From positions 39,243,611-39,307,610 of the forward strand of contig NC_092576.1 of assembly GCF_037975245.1 (NCBI RefSeq): a stretch of DNA of 64,000 nt, in the 5' to 3' direction. Of the stretch, positions 11,701 to 55,294 are shown piece after piece. The notes below the pieces were generated by a model. The model had not been told where the DNA came from, did no database searches, and worked only from the letters and a program-made list of their open reading frames with translations. A program made the position numbers and the translations under genes. Numbering within the stretch: the first letter of the stretch is position 1; the number at the start of each line of letters is the position of its first letter. Source of the stretch: Apostichopus japonicus. Its lineage: Eukaryota; Echinodermata; Holothuroidea; Aspidochirotida; Stichopodidae.

Positions 11701-13337
11701 AAACCCTGGAAACTGTGCTTCTTTTTCATTAGATTCATGGCATTAATGAAATAGTACCTCTACTCCTAATTTGACATTTAAAGTGCCCTGTTTTTTAGAG
11801 TGCCATTTCTGTTATGTAAACTGCTTCACTTTTTTAAAAAATATGATTACAGAAACTTCAATGAATAATTGTCCGCGTTAGTGCATCAATAGTTGTCGGA
11901 ACGTTTTTATGTAGTGTGGTTAGCCACAAATCCCACTGAACCTTGAATGTTGTGCACTCCTACCCCCCCCCCATCCCCACCCATGGATGCTTTTGAATCA
12001 CTGGAAGGAAGAGGAAAATGGTTGTATCGGAGTAATGTGTGACTTACCATAACAGGAAAGTCTACTTTAACAGTTGTGTTCGTCAATAATGATTTCAGAA
12101 AGAAATGTAGCACGTGTTTGTATACCGCCCTCCTTAAATGACAAGCTAGCTACGTAACACGAATGACTAAGCATATTACCTGCTTACTACAAATTACTTA
12201 CGATTCTTCCACGAGAGAATACTGAGGTTCACTTACTTATACATTTAGTAAGTTTAATATAGAAATTACAATGAGTAGGAATACAAAAAAAAAAAAAAAA
12301 AAAAATCGGTGAGCATAATACGTAATGGCAACCGTATAACAAAAGTGACAGAAACAAACAAAGGAGACACTACTGTACCAATAGGAAACATACAGAGAGA
12401 AAATAAGCAGCCTGTTATTTTACAATGAGTTTTTAAGCAGTCTTCACCAAAGTTTTCGACATTTGATATGAGAGCAGCAGAGTTTTATCCTGCAGTACGT
12501 ATATAGCGCATGTTGTGCTGAGAGGAGATAAGCCTATTTGAGGGTACATAGGCAGTGTTGAGCTGAAACGAGTACATATTAAGAGTACGTAGTACAATGA
12601 CAATTTAAACGAATATATGATCAAGAGAATTGGAATGGAGTCATATACTGGGTTAAATATAAAAACAACAGCTTGATAGCCATATATGTCAAAGAAAGTG
12701 GGAGTTTTTAAATTGACCAAGAGCAGTAACGAATGATGATGAAACAGTGTTTATGTAAATTAGACGAATGACTCTTTTCTGTCAGACGAATAAAGGTTAA
12801 TTCTAACTGTGTTATTAGGGGCCTATCTATTTTTGAGGCATAATATCAGTATGTGTTTTTTTTTTTCTTTTTTCTTGTAAATATAACAAAGTGCGAGTTA
12901 ATGACACAATTACGGAGACGAAAAAAACAAACAACCTTGCATATATATATTAGGGCAGGCAAGTGGATTATCAATGAATTTAGTGAGACGGGTAACATGT
13001 AATTTAGTCATAAATTACTTATAGTGAAACAGCAAGCAGATTGCATTATATAACATATTTGAGCCGTAAATACTGTAATATGCTAAAAGTGCCAACAGTG
13101 ATCTACGTAATGTATTACAAATCATTATAAGATTTAATTTATATTTATACTACATTATATTGCAATGGTATTATGCATAAGGGAAACTATTACTGCTTTA
13201 TTATGGTGGGGATTGTAGTTAGATTGTAGCTGATATCATAGAACTGAGGAACATAAGATATTTCGTCAAGAATTTAAAAAAAGACAATAATAAATAAAAT
13301 AATAGTTACGAATGTGTATATACTCGATAATACTTAC
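8724..13337. other. long NLR intron with diverged tandem units
   Basis: This is the intron between the NACHT exon and module B1. From about 9,190 to 10,560, diverged copies of a unit of roughly 0.6 kb recur. Shared landmarks are CATTCGCTA-ACCTAACA, CGATCATCACA, CATACAGT-AACGCAAGAA, ACACGCC and TTTGTTGT-GGC-ATTCTTTGTCGTGTCTA. An A run of about 20 lies near 12,287. No reading frame here has coding support. Confidence 0.5.
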
Positions 13338-14860
13338 GTCATGACTTGATGCTATCTGTAGCAGCTGTACGGTAGACCTCTGTAGTAACTTGCTGCCATC
13401 TCTATGGATGATAACCCTCTTAGAACAGAGCTCTGTAACAGTCTTCCTGATCTCCTCAATGTCTCCATTTTGTTCCAAGATGCAGAGTATTGCAAACTTA
13501 TCACAGTCCTTTTTCTTCTTTAAATATTCGATGATGTTACTAGCAGCTGTACGGCTTAGTCCACATGCGAATCGAAAGACATACTGGAGGTCTAATGGAT
13601 CCATCTTACCCAGAGTTTGTTCTAATTCAGCTGAATTCTTCACACTAGCAGCGATATCTGCGACCCTAAATGATGCAAACCACTCACAGAATAGTTTATG
13701 GTAGAAGCTTACTTCAATCTTGGTATTAATGATATCACCAGGAGTTTCTCCATCGGGAATATCGACGACCTTTTCCTCTACTAAAATACCAACACGGATA
13801 TAGTGATCATAAAATGCTTGACCAACTCGTTTACAGAACGCTGCTTTCCCCCACACAATCTGTTGATACTCTCTATTGAGACCTTCGAATGCTATTTTAT
13901 CAAGTTCACCATGTGTAGACTCGAACTCTACTTCATAGGTCATAACGTTACGTTCCGCTGCCTTGTTTCTGGTGTGACTGTGAAAACATTTCATCATGTA
14001 AATGAAAAACTCCGTAACAGACTTAAATTTCTGAAAGTCTTTTCTTTCATCAGTCATGTGAGCGAACGTAACGAAGAATAGAGGAACTTGGCAGAGATCG
14101 TCCAGAATTGGGTTTCCTTTCAAACCTTTCTTGATTTTATCAAAAGACTTTTCATTTTCTTCTCCAGTAATGGCTTTGCGAATGTACTGATCACGAGCAG
14201 TTTCATCAAAACCTTTTAACCTGACTCGTTTGGTTTCTGACTTGTCAAAGTCTTTTGGTAGATACCTGGTCGTCAAGGTTACTTCAAATTTTCGAAACTT
14301 CTCTAATCTGACGATCTGATCTACGTCACTTCCTGTGGTTTGATCTCTCTCAGGATACTCGTCATAGCCATCGAGGAGAACTTTAACTCTATGACAGCCT
14401 TCCAGAATAGCTCTAATGTCAGATTGTTTCACACGGGGCTCGTTTGGTAGTAGAAACATTTTGATCGCTCTGTAAATGGACTTCACGTTACCCAGCTGTC
14501 TCAGTCGTAGAAGAATTAACACATCTGCGTCCGAAAAAGGGGATTCCTTCACACCGTTACACCAGTCAAAGGCTAACTGAAGGGTGAGGGTTGATTTACC
14601 GTACCCTGGTTCACCCTCTATAATTCGACGTACTGATTTAATTCGCGGATCAGTGAAAATATGATTATATGACGCCAAACGTTCCCATGATCCTTCGGTG
14701 GAGAAGGGGGTACGTCTCTCGATGAAACCCTCAATGCTGCCCTCAACAAATACTTTATCTACACAGTAGAGTCTATCTTTGATATAAGGGATCGGTTGAA
14801 CTGCGTCATATCGTTCCTTGTACGTAGACTTCAGCTCTGTGAGAAGGATTTCTTTTTTTT
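13338..14860 (-). CDS. NLR-like receptor, NACHT ATPase exon
   Basis: This 1,523-nt internal exon lies between an acceptor (ATATTCAG, intron side above 14,860) and a GTAAGTATT donor below 13,338. It starts with 2 nt of a codon and ends in phase 0. It encodes about 507 residues of an NLR-type receptor. NACHT domains bind and hydrolyse ATP to switch the receptor into an oligomeric signalling state in the cytosol. Walker A GEPGYGKST is at 14,615-14,589 and Walker B VLLDGYDE at about 14,380-14,355. A winged-helix-like, Cys-containing region follows. The exon ends with ITELC/SSHD-type sequence that recurs at 4,480-4,599. The N-terminal effector domain was not found: the next upstream DNA is a 5.1-kb transposon, so those exons are farther right or missing. 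The NACHT call is secure; ligand and signalling partner are unknown. Confidence 0.9.
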
Positions 14861-16155
14861 CTGAATATAATGAAATTAAAAAGTAAACAATGGAATCATT
14901 GGTAAGGTACGGTATTAAATACTATCAATGCAACAAGATTTCATATGAAAGTGTGATTTATTTTGCAGTTGAAAGACCATCAATCCCCCCCCCCCCACCC
15001 GCCTCCCTCTTTGCCACGTACTCTCTTAATTCGCAAGATTGACTTTTCACTCTTAAAGATTGAATTTTAAATCTTTGGCAGATTGATATTAGGGACCAAT
15101 CGGCTTAGATTGACTTTCAATCTGTCTTAAGATTGAAAAAAAATAGTCTTAACAGATTGAAAGTCAGTGTTTTTTAAGATTAATATATCAATCTAATGGA
15201 TTGGTTTTCTTAATCTAAATTCGATTGACTTTTAAATTTCAATCTAAAACGATTGTAACTATCAGTCAATTAGATTGATAAAAGTCATTCCATACGATTG
15301 ACTCTTCGATCATAAAAACTGACTTTCAATCTGTTATAGATTGAAAAGGTAGAAATCTAATAGATTGACTTTAGAATCTAATTTAGAATGACTATTAGTC
15401 TAAAAATGTTTTTTTTTATTTATATGATTGGGACTGTCAATCAATATGATCATGATTGTCACTCGTTTTGCAGTTTGTCTATGTTTAAGCTTTCAACGTT
15501 AATTTTGTAAACATATATTGAAACAATTGGTTTTGTCACCCAATTAAATTATTCTCAAACAGAAGCTATAACCATAAGAGTATGTCCACTTAGTTTCGCT
15601 TGAGGAAAACACCAGAAACAGAAAAGACAGAATGTACTTTGTAGACGAATTATATTCATTACTGATGCAGTGAAGAAAACAAAACAGGCAGAACATGGGA
15701 AATACTGGAGTTCCATAATTTTAAACATTTTCAGGTGCTAAAGATGAAGGCTAAAATAAAACATAATTAAAACACTGGCATGCATTTACTGATGCAGTGA
15801 TAAACAAAACATGGGAAATACTAGAGTTCCATAAGTTTAATCATTTTCATGTGCTAAAGATGAAGGCTTAATACTGGTGTTCCATAATTCTAAAGTTAAA
15901 GAATGAAGTTTGCAATAACATACTGAAGATTTTATCAGGTGTAAAAGGAAAATTTGAATAATTAGCCTTTCCTATAGATACAATAGGCAAATAAGAACCT
16001 GAATTGGATTAAAAAAACTGAGGCTATGTCCCTTTTGGTTAAAACAAAACAACCTGGTAAGAATACCGAGCTGAACTAAAATTATGCATGCTTGTTTTAA
16101 ATGCTAAATCTTTTATTTATATTTCATCAGTAAACACCATTTTAAGTCAATATCA

Positions 16156-16476: not shown

Positions 16477-16880
16477 CTGTGGATAACAAGCAGAAAAGAG
16501 TCATAACTGTAACACATGGTAATGCTCTCCTTTTATCCATTTTCTGAAATGAGGATGATTTCTGCAGTTGAGCTAACTCTTTAACGCTTAAGCTTGAAAA
16601 ATATGTTCAACTGCTTTTAAAGCAGCATTTTGCGTTTGGTCGCCGTATTATACTTTTTTGACATGTCCATCAAGTTTTTTACATATATCAATCACAAAAG
16701 AGCCAACTAAGATATTTATAAGATATTTGCAGATAATGAGAAAAGTGTCCACGACAAACTCGATATTTAAAATTAATCGCATACAGTTCCCCCAAACCTA
16801 CTAGTTTGAATTCAACCAATCAGAGATATGCAGGTTTAGTGATGAGCCGTTGCTAAAAATAGATTCAAGACTTTGCGTTG

Positions 16881-16919
16881 GTACAACCAGGGAGTTGTAA
16901 TGGAACTCCCTGGTACAAC
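16881..16919 (+). mobile_element. 25-bp hairpin micro-insertion, copy 1
   Basis: A 25-bp segment (16,888-16,912) begins CAGGGAGTT and ends AACTCCCTG with an asymmetric centre GTAATGG. It is flanked on both sides by the identical 7-mer GTACAAC (16,881-16,887 and 16,913-16,919). It is almost nothing but two inverted ends. It lies inside the 5.1-kb TIR element. Confidence 0.75.
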
Positions 16920-17610
16920 TGCCATATAGACTGTACACAAATCAAGCATGGTGTTGTATTATGGACTGGTCAATGACGTTCGTAGTGTATATTCATATTA
17001 TCGGTGAGGTTTATTGGGATTCCAACGGATAATATCTTGGAGAAAAACACAGTTGAAAGTTGCAAAATTTTCAACTTTTATGCCACCATTTGAAGTAAGA
17101 TTTAAATAGATTGGCTAGTTATGTATGTCGTTATGGCATAGTGGAGTCAGTGAGGTTGAGAAAAATCATAGAAAAGCACGCAAATTGTTTTATTGCACAT
17201 GTAATTATGTATGCACAGTAACCGTAGAAGGTGTACCGTAACAGTGCAATAAATGTACTAGATAGTCTATACTATCCACACTTTTGCCATCTGTGGGCAC
17301 TGTGCTTGATATTATGATATTATGCCGATATGGATTATAATATTGAACTGACAAGAGAAGTCACAAGCCTTTACCAATTTTAATGTGCAGTAAACTTCTT
17401 GCATATAAGTACAACATGATATGTACAAGCATTAAGCATCACTACACACTTAACCCTACTGTCCAGAGAATACACACTTTTTATATATATACTGCACATA
17501 TATACAGTTTCAGTCAAAACCACTATGACCAACCCACAGCTGCTGACCTTGTTCTGTGAACTGCTTGTAGTTCAAGGGTCCCATTAACCTTTGGGCAATA
17601 AGGTGTATCC

Positions 17611-18582
17611 TATGGCGCGAGAAAGCGGAATATATTACGTACAAATATATATCTCTAAAAAAAATATACAATTGAGTGAAATGCGCCCTGCACCACTGAC
17701 GTAACAGTTTACCTGCCTTACAGATTTCAATAGGCACTTGCGGTAGATCGTAGGAAATTTGAGCTGTGCAAATGACTTTCACACGTTCCTTTGCAAGGTT
17801 TGGCAAACTGCTTACGTAACACACCGGCTAACGTTCCAAACTAATAACCTTGAAATGTGAAGAAGTGAGCAGTTACTGTTAAGCCGGCTAGTTACGTACG
17901 GTACAGAAGGCTTCGCTGTCGAACGTACCGTAGTACAATCAGGGAGTTGTTATGGAATAATCCCTGGTACTATCATGTGCAATGTGATATCGCAAACCCA
18001 CTAACTATGAACTGCATTAAGATTCTGAGCAAACATGTGCGTTTTATGAATGGCCAGTGTAAAGAACAGGCTGGTCACTGCTGAAGTTACTGAACATCTC
18101 AGTCAGCACTTACAGAGCTCCGTACTTTGTACAGCATATATATTTTTCGCACAGAATATATTTTTCGTACAGAATATATTTTTCGCACAGAATAGGTCTT
18201 GAATATTAGAGAATATATATATTTTCTTTACACACAATAAAAATATATTTTTGCACAGAATATAATTTCTCCTGTAGAATATATATTTTTTCTGTCTCAG
18301 AATTTATATATTTTGCTAGAGAAAAATATTTTTCTGTCAGAGAATATATGTTTTGGTACTTTGTACAGCATATATATATTTTTCGACCAGAATATGTTTT
18401 TTCGCACAGAATAGAATTTTGTTGTTAGAGAATATATATATTTTCCGTACACACAATAAAAATATATTTTTGCACAGAATATAATTTTTCCTGTAAAATA
18501 CATTTTTTTTTCTGTCTCAGAATTTATATATTTTGTTAGAGAAAAATATTTTTCTGTCAGAGAATATATATGTTTCTTAACA

Positions 18583-22030: not shown

Positions 22031-22139
22031 CTCTCCGCTATTCAGCCAGAGCAAGGAAGCTAGGTACTGCACACGTATCGGAATAATGCTAACTTCGCGC
22101 AGAAAATTGAATACATCAGGAAAGAACTTGCTCAACATG

Positions 22140-23960
22140 AGGTATACAAGCCAACTCTTACTTATTGTGGTAAAGCTTTTGATCATTTTTTTCAAGTTTC
22201 AGAGGACGATATCAGGAAAATAATTTCACAATCTAAAAATACTCAATGTCGCCTTGATCCTTTTCCAACAAAACTTAAAAAGGATAATATGGATTCTTTT
22301 GTTCCAGTTATTGCTAAAATTGTGAACCTGAGTCTCGCTTCGGGATGCTTCAGTGATCATTGGAAGCATGCTATTGTTTTACCTCTACTTAAAAAACAAG
22401 GTCTTGACCTATCGTATGGAAATTACCGCCCGGTTAGCAATCTCAGTTTTGTGTCCAAAATCTGTGAAAAAGCTGCCTTATCACAATTTTGCGATCATAT
22501 GGAACAAAATAATTTACCGCCTTCGTGTCAATCGGCTTATAGGAAAGACTTCAGTACTGAAACAGCTTTGCTCAAAGTGTGTAATGAAATTTTGTGCAAT
22601 ATGTACAATAACCATGTTACAATGATGGTTATGCTGGATCTTTCTGCAGCTTTTGATACTGTGGACCATGACATTTTGCTGAGTGTTCTTGATCAAAACT
22701 TTGGTACTAAGGGGCTGGCTAAATCATGGTTTGATTGTTATTTAAGACCACGCACACAAATTGTTCAGGTTGGTGAATGCATTTCTACGAAATCCACCGT
22801 CCACCAGGGCGTGCCACAAGGATCTTGTGCTGGCCCTGTTCTCTTTACGGCTTATGCAAGTACTTTATATCATACAATCTCCAGTCACCTTCCCGAGGTC
22901 ATTGGGTATGCAGACGATCACGCCCTGTACCTAAAATTCAAACCAGGTAATTCCGACTCTGAACTTAGTGCTCTAAATGCTATGGAGAGTTGTTTATTGG
23001 ACGTTAAGGCTTGGATGAATATGTGTCGCTTAAAAATGAACGATACCAAAACTGAATTTCTCATCTTTGGTTCACGAACTCAACTTGCAAAACTTGAAAT
23101 TGATTGTATTAACGTGGACTCATCTATCATTAATTGTGTAAATGATGTGAAGTATCTTGGCGTTTATTTGGACAACACCTTATCAATGAAAAAAACATAT
23201 AAATGAAAAATGTAAAATTGCTAGTTTTAACTTGTATAATATTAGAAAATTACGTAAGCATCTATCAACTGATTCTACTCGCACTTTAGTTCAGGCACTT
23301 GTCACATCACACTTTGATTATTGTAACTCTTTGTTTTATGGTCTTCCCAGTTCTTCCCTTAATAAGTTACAGCGTGTACAAAATATGGCTGCCCGTATCA
23401 TCCTAAATTTGAACAAATATGACAGTATATCTTCTGCTTTTAAACTTCTCCACTGGCTTCCGATAAAGGATCGTATCGATTTTAAAATTTTATCACTCAC
23501 TTATAAGGCGCATCACGGAACTGCACCAGCTTATCTGAAGGACCTTCTTAAACCACGATCAGTGAGCTACTCCATACGATCTCATGACAGTTTGATTTTA
23601 ACTACCCCCCGCACTCGCTGCAAGTCCCTTGGTGACCGATCTTTTTGTGTCTGTGCCCCCAAATTGTGGAATGCACTCCCATTTTCTATTCGCAATTCAA
23701 GTACTGTAAGTTCTTTTAAATCCAGTCTTAAGACTTTCATTTTCACACGTGTATATAATTAATCTAGTTTTACTTATTATCTCATTCTTTTTGTATTTAT
23801 CTCTTACTATTGTTTTATCCTATTTTCTGATTTTGTGGCATGGTATTTACTGACTTCATTTTCTCCATCGATATTGGATTTGTTTAGTCTTTTAGGTTTT
23901 TTGTTTAGTCTTTTAAGTTTGTACAGCGCCATAGCTTATGTTTTTACATATATATGTGCG
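22140..23960 (+). pseudogene. CR1/L2-like LINE, RT region, one frameshift
   Basis: A 5'-truncated non-LTR retrotransposon. Readable protein starts before 22,289 (YKPTLTYCGKAFDHFF, then DDIRKIISQSKN). It continues through NYRPVSNLSFVSKICEK, QSAYRKDFSTETALL, LDLSAAFDTVDHDILL, VHQGVPQGSCAGPVLF and the catalytic GYADDHALY to a stop at 23,206. A second frame, 23,232-23,762, carries the C-terminal part (NSLFYGLP, HHGTAPAYL, SFCVCAPKLWNALPF). The break is consistent with one extra A in the A7 run near 23,190; the endonuclease domain is absent. The 3' end near 23,990 is TTAAATTAATTAAA-rich. The RT active site is intact, so it decayed recently, but the copy cannot move by itself. Confidence 0.88.
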
Positions 23961-35900: not shown

Positions 35901-38900
35901 ATACAGTAGCTGCTAATAGCCATACAGAGCTTGGGGATGAATGCCCGTCAACCAGTAGGACTAAGAAGTGTCATAGGGAGCCTACAGACTGGAATCCAGA
36001 GGCTAGGTACCAAGCTCTGGACTTGACATTATCCTGGGTAGGTGCCATGGTGTGGGATTTACTTACCCCTGGCTAGGTGCCAAGGTATTTCACCATTTCT
36101 AAGTTGATGCCATCCATCTCCATGTTGCGGAATCTCCAAATCTGTTGCTAGCTCCAAGATAGTCATCCCTAAACTTTTATGTTTTTAAAAGAGAACAAAG
36201 ACCATCAATGTTGATAAATAGGTAAATTTTTGTATTGTTTAGTTTAGTTTAGTAGAAAAAAGGGATCAGGAAGGACACTCAAGTCCCCATCAAGGACCCT
36301 ATAGATGAGAAAAAAAGCTGAAGACACAAACACCCTTTAAGGAACTAATCATCCTAGTACCCCTCCTGTGGACCTTTTCGAGTACCTCTTTATCCTTAGC
36401 AAATAAAGGTTCCAAGTATGCACAGCATACTCCAGATGAGGCCTTACCAACCTCTTATAGCCTAACAACAATGTCCTCTTTCAGAAAACTGAATTTCCTC
36501 TTGATCATACCTAAAATCCTATGACCGCTTTAAGCAGATTCAAGACAATGTTTAGAAGGTTGCAGAGACGAGTCAATGTAGATACCTGGGTCTCTTTCAA
36601 AAAAAGACCTCTTGTAACTCCTCACCATTAAGATTGTAGATATACTTTTGGCTACTGCTACCAACATGCATCACCTTGCATTTATTAATATTAACAAGCA
36701 TTTGCCATCCCTGTGACCAGGAAAGAAGCCTTATTAAAATGCGTTTGAAATTTCTCGGAATCGCTTTTGGAAGAGACCTCAAAATACAGTTTGGTGTCAT
36801 CAGCAAACTTCTTAGCTGTACACAAAATATCTTCGTCAATGTCACTTATATAGGCAACAAACAACAAGGGACCCAAAACAAACCCTTGTGGCACACCACT
36901 AGTAACTTCCTGCCAAGAAGAAGTACAGCCGTTTATTACAACCCTGTTTCCTATTACCAAGACTTTCTCGATCCAAGACAGTAAGTTCCCATGGACACCC
37001 ATACTCTTCGACCTAAGTAAAAGACATTGGTGTGGAACTTTATCACAGGCCTTCTGGAAATCCAGGAACACAACATCTACTGACGTCTATGGCAAGCCAA
37101 TTGCTCAATAAATCGAAAAACATGGATTATCGGTTGAAAAACCATGTTTATCAACCAATAAACCATGTTTTTCAATCGAAAAAACATGTTTATTGACCGA
37201 TAAACATATATTTTTGGTTGATAAACACTGTTTATCTGCTAAAATCCATGTTTTTCGTTGAAAAACATAAATTATCGCTGATAAACATGGTTATTTGGTG
37301 ATAAACATGGTTTTTCAGTCGAAAAACAAGGTTTATCGGCCAAAAACTGTGTTTTCAAGCGATAACATGGTTTATCTGCGTAATCCATGTTTATCGCGTC
37401 AAAACATAGCTACAGTCCCGCACAATCCGCACATGAACAAGTGAGGAATAATAATCGGCTATAAGCAATAGTTGAGTCTATATAGAAGACCTTTAAAGTC
37501 ATAGGATATAGCCATAGAGCATAATAGGAACTCATTTTTACTCTATGGAATAGCCTAACTGCATAATATGAAGGCTTACAATAGTCCAATGGCTAAGCGA
37601 AGTCAAACCTACCGTTGAAATTTCCACAGTGACCTGGAAAGTCTGTGTATGAAATTTTCAACAGAGGGTTGGGAATTTGATACTCTCTCCTCTCTATTCA
37701 ACAAAGGCACCAACGCAGAATTTATCATGAGATACAACCCTGAGCACACCACGAACAGTCTCACACCAGTAACAGGAGCCATTATTTATTGTTCCTAATT
37801 ATGGATAGGGCCGGGACCTAACAAAGTTTGGGTACGGCTCGCCCACATGCTGCTTCGGAACCAAAGATTTATCATATATATACTAACATAACATGTAGAG
37901 TTTTAGAAGTAGTTACTGTAAATTTCCATCAGTCGCCAAATATAACTAGAGCACCAATGGTGCAGAAGCTCATACCTTTTCGAGCTGAAAAATGTAGGGC
38001 CCACAAAACCAATTTTGGGCCCGTGAGGGATACCCCCCCCCCTCCGTTAGCAGAATCCTGGCCACACCACTGGCTATAATTCCTATTTTCCCCTTTAAAT
38101 CCTATTTTACCCACTCTCTCAAACAATACCACTGACCTACCCTATTAAACTTTCTCCCCTCTACCTTAGCAGACATAACAAGCACTCCCTACAAGACATA
38201 ACTTCACAAGCTGACTACATACCTCAGGCTCAAAGACTTCTATGAATCGGCAAGTGCTGATTGGCTATAGGGCTCTCATGCTTAGAGTTCAACAGTTAAT
38301 AACAACTCCCAGTCCTGCTTTAATTCCACTAACAGCCTCTGCAGAGCTTAACCACAAATGTAAACAAACACTGCAGAGACTGGGAGACAAATTAAAGGAG
38401 CTTTGGCAAAAAGTGAAGGCTCATATTTTTTTAAACAATGGGGATTAATTGTAATTAATTAACTTTTGACCAAAAATTTTTAGGCATCACCTTATTCATA
38501 CACAATCCAACAATCATCAGTTCAACTTTGAATATGATCCATCAAAATCTTGAGGAGATTGAGATATTTGAAAATATTACAAAGAATGACCCCCGATGAC
38601 CCCCTAAATGACCTTTGACCTCAATTTTCCGAACACCCCTCGTAACTCTCATCGCGAGGAACATTGTGACCAAGTTTCATTATAATTGGCCATACACTGT
38701 ACGAACAGGAGCAATTTGAAAATATAGGGCCGCGGCCCGGGCCACAAAAGACCCCTAGTTGATCTTTGATCTCAAATTCATGAACACCCTGAAGGTAAAA
38801 CTACCATAGTACTATCGTGACAAATCCTCAACATTGTACCATGGAATCTGTAGGAGAAGAAGCATTTTGCGTATTTCCACAAAATTGCCCATTACGGCCC

Positions 38901-44900: not shown

Positions 44901-47900
44901 CCAGCTTCAATGCACGCAAAAATAAAAAAAACATCCTGTTATTTTCCCCCTAACCCGTTACTGTAAGTTGCCCGCGAATGCAGATGGACTGCCCTGGTAT
45001 TTAGGTCGCAGCCTGGGTCTGGGCCACCTGCAGTTTGCTGCTAACATGTGTATTCCCTACCCTGGATATCCCCACCACCAAACTTTTTTTGAGAGGCTTA
45101 GTCCAATCATAAACCTGGCTTTGTCAAATTCACGCCTACCATCTGTTAATTAGCATAGTATTTATCTGAACCTTTGGCTGGCTGCCTCTAGAAGCAAACA
45201 TTATTTTACCCCTACTGTTCGTAATGGAATGGATGTTACCTGAAAACCAAATATTCATTCATATTATAAGTAGAACAATCCAGCAGGGATAGAAAGTTTA
45301 TCTTGAATGAACCAATCAGAAGTCGTGCTATTAATAAAACTTGAAACACCTGGCCAGCAAGAGAGTTGCAAACAATTGTATCCATGACTACTAAGAAAAT
45401 AAAGCAGTGACTTGGGGCCCACGTTGGGTAGAAATCTGTGGAAAATGAATATATTTTCATTGCTTATTTGAGTATTGTATATTGGGAAGAGCTGATCAAA
45501 CATTAGTAGGGAGGGCTTTCAACTGGCCTGACGGCTTTCAACTGGCCTGACGGCATGTACATTTAATTTAATGAGAAGGGGGAGTTTTTATGAGTCTCCC
45601 GGTATGCGTCACATGAGAAGTAAATGTTTTTGTTTTTCGGTTTTATCATCGTTTTTCAAGTGGAACAGCTCATAAAATCATATCAAATGAAAATAATACA
45701 TATTTGAATATCCTTCCTTAGTTTTACTAATCAGGAATGTTTAATAAAGCATGCAATGCATCGTTCGAAAAAGGTAATTTTAAAGTAGAATTGAAAATGA
45801 ACGACATAAAACAATATCTGTGAAGCGTGTGGAGCACAACTTTGAATATTCGTTGTGAAAGAAAACATAGCAAACGATGCTTATTGCGTACAGTAAATAA
45901 ATTTCGCGGAACTGGTATAGACAAATTACGTACTGCAGCTTACGTCAGAGAAGCTCATAAATGACACAGGTGGATAGAGCGCATCAAAATTCGGTTTAGG
46001 AAATCCCTATACAGCCGACAAAAGTCGATATCTCCTTCCGTTTTCGAGTTATATGCGATTTTGTGTTTTTGCGATATGGTTTTTAGTATATTTTCATTCA
46101 ATAAGGTCGTTTTTGTGTGTGTTTAAGTAAGGGTGTGACCCAACAGATATTTCGCTAACCGTTTCACCGTATCGCCTGCCGGTCGGTTTAACGTTTAAAC
46201 GCCGTTTCCCGACGCACGGTCACTCGACTTTTAATGAAAATAGGACATAATGAGTACAATAATTAAGGTTTTTTCCCCAGCAGGTAGCAATTCAGGCAAC
46301 AAGACACTCGATCAATGTATGTTAATTACTAATTAGGCCCAATAATATTGCGAACCTTTCGTGTAATAATTGCTGAAAAGAATAACACACATGATCAGTA
46401 TTCGTGGTGTTCAGAAGTTCAGATCACTGAATTTATATCACTCGGCCTTCGGCAACATCGTAACTTTTGAAGAAAAAAACAATATATTTGTCTATCTATC
46501 GCAAGATTTTTAACAAAAACTCGCCTAAATTAGTAAACTTACCCACCTTTCCTGCTTACTTATTAAAAGTCATGTTAAGAAAACAAATTACGCACGCACG
46601 TGTTGTGCGATGGGTTGTAAAAATCAAGTTGAAACTGGTTTGAGCAGCCTCCGATTTCATTTTCTTTCTCTTGTGTCACATACATGATACAGTACCTTAC
46701 ATTAGATACAAAAGTTAATTCAACAACAGCCAAAATTTGTGTCGCAATAGGTTAAGTTTTAATCGCGCTGCGCAGTACCATTCATAATTTGCATATAACA
46801 TCAAAATTTACACTCGGCGTCCAGATGGCGGGAGATGTAACATCATGTTCAATCTGTTGTGTTGTTCCCATGGTGCGATGAACTTGGGCAAAGTTCAATG
46901 ACCTACTTATGTTCTGTGACCAATGTCAGTGGGAATTATGTGTGTAAAATCTCGGGTTTTTCCATGTGTTATATATATAGAAGTTTTACGTAAGCGGAGC
47001 GAATTTTAAGGCGGCTCGTTGATTGTGAGGAAGCACTTATCTAAGCATCAATATTTGTGAAAAATATCGTAAGTTTTTCATTTTCATTCATTTTCTTTTA
47101 TGTTTGCCGCAATCCCGCCCGCAATGCATGCACAGCATAATACCATGTGTGAAAAAAATGGCTGTACACCTGCAGACCTGAGAGAGCAAACTGGCCTTGT
47201 GTTGTTAATGTTATGACGGTACTTTCTAGAACGACCATTTGCGTCTTTTGGGGTCAACATATTTTCACACGGGATTTCAACATGCCATTGATCGATGTAC
47301 ACGGGTGATATATGTCACAAATATTAACTGGGAAAACGAATTGACGACACTATCATGAGCTTATGACTATTGGCCTACTACTTGAGTTATATTGAACACA
47401 TTATTCATGCCTAAAACATCGTTTTTCTGTTTTTTTATAGATAGTTTGCAGTACATTACTAAGTTCTTCACATATTTTTAAATAATTTTCATGTTTAAAA
47501 TGTAAACAAAATAGAAAAAATAAAAAGGGAAAACGCCTTTTTGAAAAATGGAAGCGTCCTCGCAGAATGGGCGGGGCATCTTTATTTTGCTTCAAGTAAC
47601 ATGTTTTCGCTCGGAAACAAAGTTTCATACTTCAACTCTCATAAAAAAACAAATTTACATCTCTTAGAAATAACTATTTTTCGTATTCTGCAAGTAAACC
47701 AAGTTTATATGTCCATTCACTGTTATTTAAATGGTTAAACAGAACTTCAACTTATTTGGAAGGGTGCCTCGTGGTACATAGCTTTGACTGCAACCTCTTT
47801 AAAAGCCTGGCGAAGTTAAGACTTATGTCACTGTGTTTGGGGTTCACAGTCAGAAAACGTCCCCCGTCAGTTTAATTACACGTTTCTTTGAGTGTTACTA

Positions 47901-50900: not shown

Positions 50901-53900
50901 GTAGAGTTAAGTGTGTTTTGTGTCTTGTGTAGTGTGTAATGTGTAATGTGTACTGTGCACTGTATATTGTGTACTGTGTACTGTGCACTGCACAGTGTGT
51001 ATTGTTCTCTGGGCACTGTGTGCTGTGCTCTGTGTTCTGTGTAGTGTGTACAGTGTCTACTATATACTGAGGCTACTTTACAGTATGTCTACTGTGTACT
51101 GTACACTGTGTCCATGTGTGTGTATTTTGAAGATGGCGGATATGTAGCAAAAAAGTAAAACGAAAAATAAAAAAAACTCTGTGAGCTTACCTCACCAAAT
51201 GAGCCTTCACCTAGTTTGGATATTAGATCAAAACATTGATCAAAGAAAAGATATCTGCTGTTGACATTGTAGTGAGGGCTTTGAAGCAAACCTGAAGAAA
51301 AGGTCAAGGGTCATAACAATCTCATTGATAATTTTCTGAGCTGTAAGCAGTTATGATATACTTCAACTATGACTAAATGACAATTGTTGTTCTAACACAT
51401 ATCCAACAACTTATTAAATAATGCAACCTAACGGAATGATACCGAGAAACTGTCCAAAATGCGAACAATCTTTTTTTCTTTATGAAGAGCAAACACAGTT
51501 GTTACTGTAAGAATAGACTTAGAGACCTCAGGATTATGAGTTCGGAGTCACTAATTACAAATGAAGTTTCCAAGCATCAACTCAAGGTAGGATACTACAT
51601 AAGGTAACCAGGAGGTGGCTTTTAAAAGTTTGTTCTGGGTCTGATAATCATTTCAAAAGATAATTTAACAAGATTGTCGAAAAAGACAATGTAACTTGAC
51701 CACATAGTAAACTGCTCTGGATTTCCACAACTTTCTATTTCGATGGAGACATCAATCATTAATTTAATCTGGGTGAGACTGGGTTTGATATTCATATCAA
51801 AAGCTATTAAATTTAAGAAGAGAGTCAAAGAGACAATGTAGCTTTAACACATAAATGAACTGCTCTGGATTTGCCGGAATTGTTAACTTTCTATTATGAT
51901 GGAGACATCTATCATTAATTTAATCTGGGTGAGACTGGGTTTAATATTCATATCAAAAGCTATTAAATTTAACAAGGTTGTCAAAAAGACAATGTAACTT
52001 TAACAAATTACAAACTGCTCTGGATTTGCTGGAATGGTTCACTTTCTGTTACCATGGAAACATCAATCATTAAATCAATATCTCCAGTTTCTATGCAGTC
52101 AGTATTAGTTTAATGACACAAAGAAAATATAAAGTTCCCATCAAACCCCATCATAAGGGTACAATATGTCACCATGTGTTTGAATCAAACAGGTCATTGA
52201 GTTTATTCTCAAACAAAATGCAATGTTTTGAGTTTAGTGCATACAGTTTCACTGTAACCTACTTCACTTTATTACTTGTTCCTAGTGTAACCTACTACAC
52301 TATATTACTTGTTCCTAGTGTAACCTACTACACTTTATTACTTGTTCCTAGTGTAACCTACTACACTTTATTACTTGTTCCTAGTGTAACCTACTACACT
52401 TTATCACTTGTTCCTATTGTAACCTGCTACACTATATTACTTGTTCCTAGTGTAACCTACTACACTTTATTACTTGTTCCTAGTGTAACCTACTACAAGT
52501 TATTACTTGTTCCTAGTGTAACCTACTACACTTTATTACTTGTTCCTAGTGTAACCTACTACACTTTATTACTTGTTCCTATTGTAACCTGCTACACTAT
52601 ATTACTTGTTCCTAGTGTAACCTACTACACTTTATTACTTGTTCCTAGTGTAACCTACTACAAGTTATTACTTGTTCCTAGTGTAACCTACTACACCATA
52701 TTACTTCTTCCTACTGTAACATACTACACTACATAACTTGTTCCTAGTGTAACCTACTACACTTTATTACTTGTTCCTAGTGTAAAATGCTACACTATAT
52801 TACTTGTTCCTAGTGTAACCTAGTACACTTTATTACTTGTTCCTAGTGTAACCTACTACAAGTTATTACTTGTTCCTAGTGTAACCTACTACACCATATT
52901 ACTTCTTCCTACTGTAACATACTACACTATATAACTTGTTCCTAGTGTGTAACCTACTAAGGTTCACTATATTACTAGTTCCAAATTGACAGTTCCAGAT
53001 CTGTAATTTCCAATGCTAATCCTATGGAATTTGCTTGAAATTGAGTGATTTTGATAGCTTCAGAATTGCAATATATGTACTCATGGAGCCTCACATTCTT
53101 CAGGACATCCAATTTAATGTTGTGACCGGTGATAGTAAATTCCATGAATTTGGGGAGAAAATTCAATGAAATTCTATTATAAATGGATAGAAATAATTCA
53201 TTCTAGCATTCACGCTCGTGTTCCACTGATTAAAAGGATACACCCAGTCCTGTCTGGGTCATGAAAGGACACCGCCCTCGGTTTAAGCTCCTCATCATGT
53301 GACCTGTTGAAAAAGAGGCGGCTCACAGGCGGTGCGCTCTTGATCGGGGGCCGGGGAGCGGCCTTACCATCATCTGGTGTCCTAGTGGAGAGCTAGAAAA
53401 GAAGCAAGAAGGACCACGCAATAAAGTGACAGTGTTATTGATCATCAACTCTCTACAGTGTCCTCTTTTCAATTGAGATTTTCCATCTTTTACATCATTT
53501 TTGGAAAATTTATCAGAACTGTATGTATTTTTTTTCTTTTTCCAGCTTAACAAATCATACAGAAAGCTTACAAAACAGGTGCCCAGGCAAGCTATTGGAG
53601 AAGCGGAGAAAAACGTGTCTTTTTCTTGGGATAATTTAGTGTTGAAACTTTTGCCTAGCAGTTTGAAGGCACTCAACTTTGTCCCATATAAAATTACTAT
53701 GCTTCTTGTGTACAAACTGCTATACATTTTTTGCATATTTGTTTAGCAATTTGCCCACTTTGCATAATTTTGGGGGTTTTCTTTTTTCCAGTACTACTGT
53801 AGTGCTTAATATTCTTTAATTATCGAACACCAATCATGTTGTGAAGAACTTTTGTAACTAAAATGCAAGATATTAGAATCCTATAGCAATAGTAGATAGT

Positions 53901-54606
53901 AATATTAATATTAATACTAAAATCTGATCATCTGGACGAAAAATAATTAGATTACAAGCTATCCCTTTATGATGCCGGTAATCTGACCTACTTTCGAATG
54001 AGGTGTAACAGAAGTGTTAGACACCACCATCGATACCAGAAAATACACACACACACAGCTTGCTACCGTCGGTAATTAGACACTAGTGTACAGTAAAAAC
54101 ATGCAGCTACGGTCGATACCCACAACACAGTGCACATAGCAGCGATGGACATCTCAGCAGGGAGTTTTTATGGAACTCCCTGATCTCAGATCCAAATAAA
54201 AGATAACAAGAAATCATGTTTCATTATTGTCTGCATTTTGTAGCGACATGAAGAAAACTTCAATTGCAAGCAACTGGAAGTTAACTTTTTCAGAGGGCGG
54301 CACATGGTTTGGGGCGAGTCTTCAATGCCTTTAATTCAGCATACTGTTCATAAACATTGAGAAGGGCCCAACATTACTGGTTGAAAGCTTCTGTGTAGAA
54401 CATGTGTTCTACTGTATGGTTGACATTTCAAAGCATTCTGAATATATATGACCACTGACTAAAAGATAGTCAGAAGCTGCAAATAATTTGTTCTTAAATG
54501 TTACCTTCTTTTGGGAGAAAGAGACCTCTGGAAGAAACTTTGGAGTTGGTCTTGGAGTTGAAAATGATTTATCTGGTACCACAAAACTGTTTTGAAATTG
54601 ATGCAT
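32922..54606 (-). CDS. PKMYT1: PKMYT1 (Myt1) CDK1-inhibitory kinase, 15 coding exons
   Basis: Joining the 15 coding exons listed below gives 1,605 nt (534 residues plus stop) with matching phase at every junction. Myt1 is an ER/Golgi-membrane kinase of the Wee1 family. It phosphorylates CDK1 on Thr14 and Tyr15 and so holds cells before mitosis. Seen in order: a short Pro/Thr-rich N-terminus, P-loop GEGSFGEV (residues 70-77), ATP lysine in YAVKR (K92), catalytic HLDVKPDN (D185, N190), DFG (D203), YLAPE (225-229), a membrane helix after the kinase domain (about 332-347) and a tail rich in SP/TP sites. The HLDVKP loop plus the post-kinase membrane helix separate Myt1 from Wee1. The vertebrate protein is of similar length. 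The exons are spread over 21.7 kb because the introns are full of repeats and transposons. Confidence 0.96.
33632..33821 (-). CDS. PKMYT1: PKMYT1 exon, CDK-site cluster
   Basis: Encodes [20 protein letters not shown], then [16 protein letters not shown] and an acidic part ending GPRSLHM. At least six SP/TP sites lie within about 30 residues, fitting the known mitotic feedback phosphorylation of Myt1. Confidence 0.9.
34232..34330 (-). CDS. PKMYT1: PKMYT1 exon, basic Pro-rich tail
   Basis: Encodes [20 protein letters not shown], then [17 protein letters not shown] and two SP sites are candidate CDK sites, and ARL is a possible cyclin-docking RxL-type element. Confidence 0.87.
34480..34597 (-). 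CDS. PKMYT1: PKMYT1 exon, acidic/Ser-rich tail
   Basis: Encodes [20 protein letters not shown], then [19 protein letters not shown]. Low-complexity regulatory tail; phase 1 in, 2 out, consistent with its neighbours. Confidence 0.88.
34955..35141 (-). CDS. PKMYT1: PKMYT1 exon, membrane anchor
   Basis: Begins KNKC, then the hydrophobic stretch [16 protein letters not shown] followed by basic residues. This is the single membrane helix that tethers Myt1 to the ER/Golgi. The exon ends [12 protein letters not shown]. Confidence 0.93.
35353..35498 (-). CDS. PKMYT1: PKMYT1 exon, kinase C-terminus
   Basis: Encodes [20 protein letters not shown], then [20 protein letters not shown] is the conserved Arg-containing end of the kinase fold. 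Ends in phase 0 at GTGAGT. Confidence 0.95.
36067..36173 (-). CDS. PKMYT1: PKMYT1 exon, helix F-G region
   Basis: Encodes [20 protein letters not shown], then [16 protein letters not shown]. Acceptor ATAAAAG is poor in pyrimidines, but codon phase (2 in, 1 out) and family match are exact. It lies just outside the 3' end of a minus-strand LINE. Confidence 0.93.
37088..39279. mobile_element. 2.2-kb TIR element inserted in the LINE RT
   Basis: The left end TATGGCAAGCCAATTGCTC and the complementary right end (39,258-39,279) are flanked by the 6-bp duplication GACGTC (37,082-37,087 and 39,280-39,285). Joining the flanks with one GACGTC gives an uninterrupted LINE frame ([15 protein letters not shown]), which fixes the ends. 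The first about 320 bp and last about 180 bp are arrays of a partly palindromic unit around CATGGTTTATCG and its complement. The interior (38,580-39,060) has about three monomers of a TGACCTTTGACC / AAGTTTCAT repeat of the kind common in marine invertebrates. No transposase. Termini and duplication length match the element at 17,611-18,844. Confidence 0.92.
38580..39060 (+). repeat. TGACCTTTGACC-type tandem monomers
   Basis: Three diverged monomers of about 130-150 bp, each with GACCTTTGA-CTCAAATT, GAACACCC and CAAGTTTCAT-AAATTCCATC-ACACTGT-CGA, ending GATAGAGTGATAGACGCCGC and TGAGCTAAAA. Internal to the 2.2-kb TIR element. Confidence 0.75.
41204..41295 (-). CDS. PKMYT1: PKMYT1 exon, activation segment
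   Basis: Encodes [20 protein letters not shown], then [10 protein letters not shown]. EGDxxYLAPE is the Wee/Myt1-type activation-loop end. The phase-2 end is completed by the exon at 36,067-36,173, 5 kb away across a LINE. Confidence 0.96.
41950..42600 (+). repeat. degenerate GATG-rich simple repeat in a PKMYT1 intron
   Basis: From about 42,190 to 42,590 the intron repeats GTGATGCAAGGTGATGGATG in degenerate form. It is non-coding; the opposite strand gives an artefactual His/Ser-rich frame. Confidence 0.8.
42618..42740 (-). CDS. PKMYT1: PKMYT1 exon, catalytic loop and DFG
   Basis: Encodes [20 protein letters not shown], then [21 protein letters not shown]. The HLDVKP variant of the HRD loop is characteristic of Myt1, and both catalytic aspartates are present. 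Confidence 0.97.
43000..43340 (+). repeat. short tandem duplication in a PKMYT1 intron
   Basis: TGTATTCCACACTTACTAAACT-GT-ACCATG-TAAC-TTAGCACAAAT near 43,027 recurs near 43,282 with about 20% difference, a period of about 255 bp. Confidence 0.55.
43577..43652 (-). CDS. PKMYT1: PKMYT1 exon, helices D-E
   Basis: Encodes [20 protein letters not shown], then LGDLIQ. It completes the AG-split Ser codon and ends in phase 0 at GTAAGT. Confidence 0.92.
44244..48221. mobile_element. 4.0-kb TIR transposon with TCGATAAAAA-rich ends
   Basis: A perfect 27-bp inverted repeat (44,244-44,270, beginning CAGTACTGATTTCGCTTAAC, and its complement at 48,195-48,221) is flanked by TA on both sides. Both ends carry arrays built from ATCGATAAAAA and GTTGAAAATCG. 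A fragment at 46,604-46,680 resembles a THAP zinc-finger start. A 20-bp direct repeat (GGCTTTCAACTGGCCTGAC) sits near 45,528. No transposase was recognised. It lies inside a PKMYT1 intron. Confidence 0.87.
46604..46680 (+). pseudogene. possible THAP-domain fragment
   Basis: Reads [20 protein letters not shown]. Cys-x3-Cys followed by a spaced FHF resembles the first zinc ligands and FHxFP region of THAP domains, which several transposases carry. No later Cys/His pair was found, so it is at best a remnant or a first exon. Confidence 0.3.
48461..48586 (-). CDS. PKMYT1: PKMYT1 exon, helix C and hinge
   Basis: Encodes [20 protein letters not shown], then [19 protein letters not shown]. The Glu of EEVNKHE is the helix-C candidate, and YIQAELC is the hinge, as in Myt1 proteins. 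Confidence 0.95.
48587..49641. other. PKMYT1 intron with probable interspersed repeat
   Basis: About 48,700-49,090 reads like a decayed interspersed element (AAAGGCTCTGTCGCCGTAAA, CCAGTGTAATTGACGTAAGA). No intact frame or exon of PKMYT1 is seen here. Confidence 0.4.
49642..49724 (-). CDS. PKMYT1: PKMYT1 exon, ATP-binding lysine
   Basis: Encodes [20 protein letters not shown], then RFRGEGD. AVK carries the ATP-anchoring lysine (residue 92). Acceptor TTGACAG, donor GTAAGT, ends in phase 2. Confidence 0.95.
49805..50340. other. candidate short MITE in a PKMYT1 intron
   Basis: CAGGGATGTGCCCACGCTGA at 49,810 starts a GC-richer block with three CCCAGCACT repeats, and a GGGGAGGGGGACACCCCCTC palindrome lies near 50,230. 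The ends were not proven by a target duplication. Confidence 0.35.
50640..51120 (+). repeat. degenerate TGTGTAYTG repeat array
   Basis: About 450 bp of variants of TGTGTACTG / TGTGTATTG with no fixed register. It ends about 70 bp from the donor of the PKMYT1 P-loop exon. Confidence 0.85.
51191..51291 (-). CDS. PKMYT1: PKMYT1 exon, kinase start and P-loop
   Basis: Encodes [20 protein letters not shown], then [13 protein letters not shown], with the glycine-rich loop at its 3' end. The donor GTAAGC directly follows GAG, and the next exon supplies the Val of GEV. Confidence 0.94.
51650..52090 (+). repeat. ~150-bp tandem repeat, three copies
   Basis: Each copy has GTC-AAAAGACAATGTAAC, AAACTGCTCTGGATTT, GGAGACATCAATCATTAATT and GTGAGACTGGGTTT-ATATTC. 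Starts near 51,660, 51,808 and 51,965. Intronic and non-coding. Confidence 0.8.
52250..52980 (+). repeat. 33-bp minisatellite, about 22 copies
   Basis: The unit is GTAACCTACTACACTTTATT followed by ACTTGTTCCTAGT. Because 33 is a multiple of 3 and the unit lacks a stop in one frame, it yields a long artefactual frame repeating [11 protein letters not shown]. Higher-order variation is visible (ACAAGTTATT and ATTGTAACCTGC variants recur in order), pointing to duplication of multi-unit blocks. Confidence 0.96.
53368..53392 (-). CDS. PKMYT1: PKMYT1 25-nt microexon
   Basis: Between TTTTCTAG and GTAAGGCC, 25 nt encode LSTRTPDD plus 1 nt. The phases (0 in, 1 out) are exactly those needed to join the start exon to the P-loop exon, and the residues add another TP site. 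There is no independent evidence beyond splice sites and phase. Confidence 0.72.
53972..54332 (+). repeat. duplicated segment left of the PKMYT1 start exon
   Basis: About 330 bp plus the hairpin insertion. It begins ATGCCGGTAATCTGACCTA and ends GGGGCGAGTCTTCA-TGCCTTT. Same orientation as 54,967-55,294, with which it shares about 85% of bases by eye. Confidence 0.9.
54151..54189 (+). mobile_element. 25-bp hairpin micro-insertion, copy 3
   Basis: The segment 54,158-54,182 (CAGGGAGTTTTTATGG ... AACTCCCTG) is flanked by perfect 7-bp repeats ATCTCAG. The paralogous segment at 54,967-55,294 has the corresponding site (GACACCTCAG-GTCC near 55,145-55,155) with neither the hairpin nor the second 7-mer. 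This supports insertion with target duplication rather than a chance palindrome. Confidence 0.82.
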
Positions 54607-54966: not shown

Positions 54967-55294
54967 ATGCCGGTAATCTGACCTAGTTTCGAATGAGGTG
55001 TAACAGAAGTGTTAGACACCACCATCGATCCCAGAAAATACACACACAGCTTGCTACCGTTAGATACTAGTGTACATTCAGTACAAACAGCTGCGGTCAA
55101 TACCCACAGCACACTGCACAGTGTATAAACGATACAGCCATGGACACCTCAGGTCCAGCTAGAGATAACAAGGTATCACGTTTCATTACTGTCTGAATTT
55201 TGTAGCGACACAAACAAAACGTCACTTGCAAGCAACAGATAGTTAATTTTTTTAGATGGCCGCACTGGGTTTGGGGCGAGTCTTCACTGCCTTT
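54967..55294 (+). repeat. duplicated segment right of the PKMYT1 start exon
   Basis: Second copy of 53,972-54,332, without the hairpin and its 7-bp duplication (328 versus 361 bp, a 33-bp difference). The two copies bracket the PKMYT1 start exon. Confidence 0.9.

Follow-up and report, generated by a model that had tools for sequence, protein, structure and literature searches.

Three short hairpins in a 64,000-nucleotide stretch of the Apostichopus japonicus genome (hereafter the window, meaning the whole stretch analysed) were found to belong to a large family of quasi-palindromes dispersed through the genome. The members of this family are very probably footprints left by the excision of a P-element-like transposon, rather than copies of a mobile element of 25 bp, and are referred to below as scars. 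This reading is preferred over that of a mobile hairpin because the junctions vary from site to site, the retained terminal repeat stops near 17 nt, some joins are one-sided, and some insertions repeat the arm of the hairpin. The long stagger, together with 7-bp target duplications like those of Galileo, points to an enzyme of the P type; assignment to the P superfamily is thus likely, and is based on mechanism rather than on linkage to a transposase.

Hairpins in the window

The three hairpins and their flanking 7-mers were recovered at the coordinates given for them in the original prediction, and the paralogous segment that it had described as an empty site (54,967-55,294) does contain the 7-mer once, as ACCTCAG. 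The features are as follows (TSD, target duplication):

16617..17187, + strand: repeat R1, which carries scar 1 (blastn of the window against the loci examined, 81-99.8% identity)
16881..16919, + strand: scar 1; TSD GTACAAC, 25-bp hairpin at 16888-16912, TSD GTACAAC; within repeat R1
17933..17973, + strand: scar 2; TSD GTACAAT, 27-bp hairpin at 17940-17966, TSD GTACTAT (six of seven bases matching)
53968..54336, + strand: repeat R2, which carries scar 3; present in copies with the scar and in copies without it
54151..54189, + strand: scar 3; TSD ATCTCAG, 25-bp hairpin at 54158-54182, TSD ATCTCAG; within repeat R2
55146..55152, + strand: unoccupied target with a single ACCTCAG, in a paralogous copy of R2

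The left side of scar 2 retains the 17-mer CAGGGAGTTGTTATGGA whole, and comparison of its flanks with the genomic loci examined revealed no long repeat. When the window was searched for diverged copies, nothing above chance emerged beyond the three hairpins. A single weak candidate, at 38,312, did not exceed what ten shuffled controls gave (0-2 candidates each), and a fourth copy that had been proposed at about 45,588-45,611 did not pass the search. The window also contains an open frame with a NACHT domain (13269-14921, minus strand), a long open frame of near-identical short repeats that is probably a minisatellite (52074-52733), and two segments (22064-23759 and 36694-37086) whose translations, judged by eye, resemble fragments of non-LTR reverse transcriptases.

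A large and length-limited family

Searches of the genome (671.6 Mb in 35 contigs) returned about 1,900 copies with perfect arms, compared with 0 or 1 for reversed-pattern controls. The pattern CAGGGAGTT-N5-9-AACTCCCTG, in which perfect 9-bp arms are separated by 5-9 bases (23-27 bp in total), occurred at 971 sites, and its reverse at none; the 50 hairpins among the matches listed were all 25-27 bp long. With 10-34 bases between the arms (28-52 bp), 979 sites were found (reversed control, 1), of which 35 also belong to the class of long hairpins described next, so that the 28-34 bp class amounts to about 944. Only 44 perfect-arm hairpins of 35-64 bp are present genome-wide, 35 of them spanning 35-52 bp and 10 measuring exactly 35 bp, and there are 34 hairpins of 18-22 bp. 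Among the 100 hairpins listed, lengths ranged from 25 to 34 bp, except for one compound of 50 bp, and 4 of the 50 listed among the 28-52 bp matches reached 34 bp. The long hairpins that were inspected include two scars in tandem (C1:3254298 and C1:7353294) and insertions that repeat the arm (C14:14777365 and C21:17715094). A 28-mer allowed three or fewer mismatches matched 1,059 places (reversed control, 0), and the 16-mer CAGGGAGTTGTTATGG was found exactly at 1,977. The hairpin family is real, large, and sharply limited in length. The number of 25-mers does not equal the number of events, since those located in R1 and R2 spread as passengers, and this copying accounts for part of the 25-mer excess.

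Target duplications and unoccupied sites

Flanking 7-mers were tallied at 60 sites, distinct by their 30-bp flanks, of which 13 rows belong to R1 and 11 to R2. The two 7-mers were identical at 35 of the 60 sites, agreed at six of seven positions at 12, and at fewer positions at 13. With shuffled flanks, 4.8% reached seven of seven and 4.6% six of seven, and even these control values are inflated by two repeat families. Outside R1 and R2, 21 of 36 sites were perfect and 7 matched at six positions (28 of 36 at six or seven), while 8 matched at five or fewer, the 36 being not fully independent in that L069 is related to L071, and L089 to the second hairpin of L002. The 28 duplications outside the two repeats follow the motif NTNNNAN, with T at position 2 in 25 and A at position 6 in 27; the first base is G or C in 23, and the last base is C in 15. 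An exact 8-bp repeat was observed at one of the 60 sites (L026), a locus that also holds an 84%-identical stretch without the insertion.

Paralogues of R2 that are unoccupied, and that have a single 7-mer, were identified in L033/L034, in L030, and at 55,146 of the window, the closer ones (up to 93% identity) being those of the overlapping loci L033/L034. The target duplications and unoccupied paralogues show that insertion occurred at these sites. Paired scars with one 7-bp target copy between them were also seen, at L002:1501-1559 and at L033:1501-1550 (in the latter, 6 bp and a shared base), which suggests that the same target was hit repeatedly by insertion.

Scars as passengers of repeats

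R1 is common to 20 of the loci examined, and both R1 and R2 exist in many copies that bear the same scar, a distribution that would be produced by a single excision followed by amplification together with the repeat. The amplification of scars within R1 and R2 speaks against a purely somatic excision. The original prediction had named constant embedding in one larger repeat as a finding that would reduce the hairpin to a part of that repeat. Such embedding was found for two of the three window copies (in R1 and R2), but 36 of the 60 distinct sites lie outside both repeats. Seven of the 20 R1 copies (L073, L076, L081, L083, L094, L099, and L107) share a linked change, in which the left target GTACAAC becomes GTTGTAC and the core GGAAC becomes GCAAC, lengthening the palindrome; L088 and L090 are without it. 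A template switch on the hairpin during replication could make this change in one step.

Anatomy of the junctions

The core of the hairpin, described in the original prediction as an asymmetric TATGG, varies by site, with CAGGGAGTTGTTATGGA usually whole on one side and the opposite side trimmed to varying points. The whole 17-mer was present on one side in 63 of the 100 hairpins among the matches listed (50 with short and 50 with longer spacers). In 46 of these 63, the trimmed arm ends where the terminal A may belong to both sides (at position 9 in 23, position 12 in 18, position 11 in 3, and position 14 in 2); such a join looks the same as a blunt one that is shorter by a single base. Blunt or inserted joins account for 15 of the 63, with lengths between 34 and 26. 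Sharing of the last A along the length of the arm is the pattern expected from one-base microhomology. The two commonest products are 25 and 28 bp long, and their dominance is also compatible with an overhang of 19 nt whose last bases are GGAAC and whose AAC pairs with either GTT of the opposite arm. Two filled overhangs of 17 nt amount to 34 bp (17+17).

The 30 loci read around the 16-mer, some of which overlap or are near-duplicates, comprise 26 two-armed and 4 one-sided scars, and the 17th base in them is A in 26, T in 3, and C in 1. The class with T as the 17th base occupies 64 places, and its commonest join with a trimmed right arm is GGTAACAACTCCC (5 places), in which the T is shareable. 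In the one-sided scars L113 and L114, GTTTCAT is followed by the 16-mer and TTTCAT, and in L116, GTTATAT is followed by the 16-mer and TTATAT. The 16-mer in these three loci runs directly into the second target copy, and its last G can double as the first base of that copy; in L115 it runs into part of the second copy. Other junctions contain short insertions, or insertions that repeat the arm, for example a second CAGGGAGTTGTTATGG directly after the first, and the latter look templated. The retained terminal repeat ends sharply near 17 nt on each side, the exact point being 16 to 19 nt. Cores and lengths sort by joining class, and neither these classes nor the one-sided scars reveal the common master copy expected of a MITE.

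Search for a parent element

An intact element with these ends was looked for in the 30 loci around the 16-mer, at 30 of the 45 P-transposase matches, and in the listed junction classes, and none was seen. The larger family with the same ends, which the original prediction had suggested as a possible source of transposase, did not appear in these loci and classes either. Among the first 100 listed of the 1,977 exact 16-mers, a set that misses mutated ends, both inward-facing pairs within 20 kb were scars. The 3′ classes of the 16-mer that were read are those continuing with AAC and a third next base other than C (158 places, 100 listed), with T (64, all listed), and with A and then a base other than A (118 places, of which 100 were listed, 48 of these with their sequence). 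No recurrent element interior was seen in these classes, which leave out the bulk class (AAC, then C). Apart from scars and insertions, the places read comprised joins to other sequence, copies carried as passengers, and small groups of duplicates. Among the duplicates, four places on C17, two on C12, and two on C19 proved to be one-sided scars.

The RNase H domain of P transposases (PF21787) was matched 45 times in this genome, some matches being pieces of one gene, and in none of 14 control genomes. The 16-mer was absent, at two or fewer mismatches, from within 1.5 kb of 30 P-transposase loci among the 45 matches. A version with three mismatches in L049, and versions with four in the same place in L045 and L046, were not judged to be ends. 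In L037/L068, the first 11 bases of the end, CAGGGAGTTGT (L068:3615-3625), are located 657 bp before a 447-aa P-transposase frame; one occurrence was found in 100 kb, compared with 0.05 expected. The match stops after these 11 bases, and no inverted partner was found downstream in the 9 kb read. Three of the proteins read have both RNase H and GTP-binding domains by Pfam, and the L065 protein, compared with solved structures (PDB), matched the Drosophila P transposase (3.3e-26). At L066:1332-8347 there is a complete P-type element, 7,016 bp long, with perfect 31-bp terminal repeats (CAGAGCCGTATATAGAGAGAGTTTGGCCAAC, starting with CAGAG), an 8-bp duplication (TTGAATGC), and an uninterrupted transposase-like frame of 781 aa. 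L066 is the only one of four P loci read over 9 kb to have clear ends, and these differ from the ends of the scar family. The parent of the scars may be extinct, very rare, or located in unread sequence.

Proposed origin of the scars

The ends of the hairpin family start with CAGGG and share the CA start of P-superfamily ends, which are of the CANRG type. Excision of the fly P element yields 17-nt 3′ tails, short microhomologies, and templated insertions, as described in excerpts of PMC2895639, and the 17-nt stagger of the P transposase is characterized in passages of two further sources as unusual and typical of that enzyme (PMC7776569, PMC10983969). Galileo, another member of the P superfamily, produces duplications of 7 bp, rarely 8 bp, at a palindromic target with the consensus GTATTAC or GTANTAC, according to excerpts of PMC4168063.

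From the patterns described above we infer an enzyme class, an approximate cut position, an overhang chemistry, and a parent, as follows. A cut-and-paste transposon of the P-superfamily type would insert and duplicate 7 bp of its target, with a palindromic NTNNNAN preference. The transposase would later cut one strand at the element end, with the cut in the second strand placed about 17 nt into the terminal inverted repeat (the data allow 16-19 nt). Each broken chromosome end would then carry a 3′ overhang, one being CAGGGAGTTGTTATGGA and its counterpart probably CAGGGAGTTGTTATGGT. Repair by end joining, often through 1-3 bases of microhomology, would keep one overhang whole and trim the other, and fill-in would give a quasi-palindrome of 25-34 bp between two target copies. 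Some scars would subsequently be multiplied as passengers of other repeats, and many would represent separate inherited chromosome breaks. It is highly improbable that the transposon was systematically removed by a P-type, perhaps domesticated, transposase, in the germ line or by programmed elimination during development of the body, such that the assembly was left with scars and almost no elements.

Alternative explanations

It is very unlikely that the scars derive from a transposon that does not belong to the P superfamily but likewise makes its cut at some distance inside the end. With the parent unseen, its transposase is unseen too, and CAGGG also starts some hAT ends. However, hAT elements make 8-bp duplications, and their excision leaves hairpins of flanking sequence without terminal repeat, whereas here the duplications are of 7 bp (exact at 35 of 60 sites, versus one exact 8-bp repeat) and about 17 nt of the end is kept. 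A long stagger is described as atypical, and is tied to the P transposase, in the passages cited above (PMC7776569, PMC10983969).

That the 25-34 bp hairpin is a mobile miniature element in its own right, mobilized by a transposase acting in trans, is very unlikely. The roughly 1,900 copies, the 7-bp duplications at most examined sites, the unoccupied sites, and the lack of a longer element in the loci and classes read would all agree with such an element, but core and length differ from site to site through trimmed joins, insertions, and one-sided losses, and the retained terminal repeat halts near 17 nt. Moreover, 25 bp that contain two ends leave no space for internal transposase binding sites of the kind described for P elements (in excerpts of PMC7776569). 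The original prediction was correct that the hairpin consists of two terminal repeats and nothing else, and that such ends belonged to a DNA transposon that made 7-bp duplications; the hairpin of 25-27 bp as the mobile unit is not supported, given the variety of the junctions, the limit of about 17 nt, the one-sided joins, and the arm-repeating insertions. A palindromic regulatory or protein-binding motif under selection, or a mere part of larger repeats, as the 24 of 60 distinct sites in the dispersed repeats R1 and R2 might indicate, has next to no chance of being correct, given the 36 sites elsewhere and the duplications and unoccupied paralogues, which denote insertion.

Significance

Read as excision footprints, the roughly two thousand scars constitute a natural record of chromosome-break repair, from which the germ-line repair spectrum (use of microhomology, templated insertions, and one-sided loss) would be measurable without experiment. 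They would also represent a P-type family known so far solely from the places of its former insertion. No comparable genome-wide set of P-type scars, and no mention of the 16-mer CAGGGAGTTGTTATGG as a literal string, was found in the open-licence literature. This family also gives a general warning: a short palindrome flanked by target duplications may be a scar and not a miniature element.

Comparison with known systems

Like MITEs, the hairpins are short, present in many copies, and equipped with inverted ends and target duplications; they differ in having no internal sequence, and in that their lengths and cores follow the joint. Zebrafish Pdre2/THAP9 is a P-type element from outside the insects that likewise has short terminal repeats (13 bp, in the passages of PMC10983969 consulted), but its duplication is of 8 bp and copies of the element persist in the genome. 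The Galileo/1360 branch shares with the present family the 7-bp duplications and a palindromic target of the GTANTAC type that is close to the one found here (excerpts of PMC4168063). Galileo differs in its long, internally repetitive terminal repeats and its 191 copies in D. willistoni, whereas the present family is known by about 16 bp of its end, no element body having been found. The footprints of the Drosophila P element, as described in part in PMC2895639, have the same order of parts: between two target copies lie remnants of both ends, each of at most 17 nt, joined at a short microhomology or through a templated insertion. They differ in their 8-bp duplication, in the sequence of the ends, and in being laboratory-induced, whereas the set described here is large, natural, and inherited. 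This type of scar is known from laboratory flies, and a natural set of this size without a visible parent is unusual.
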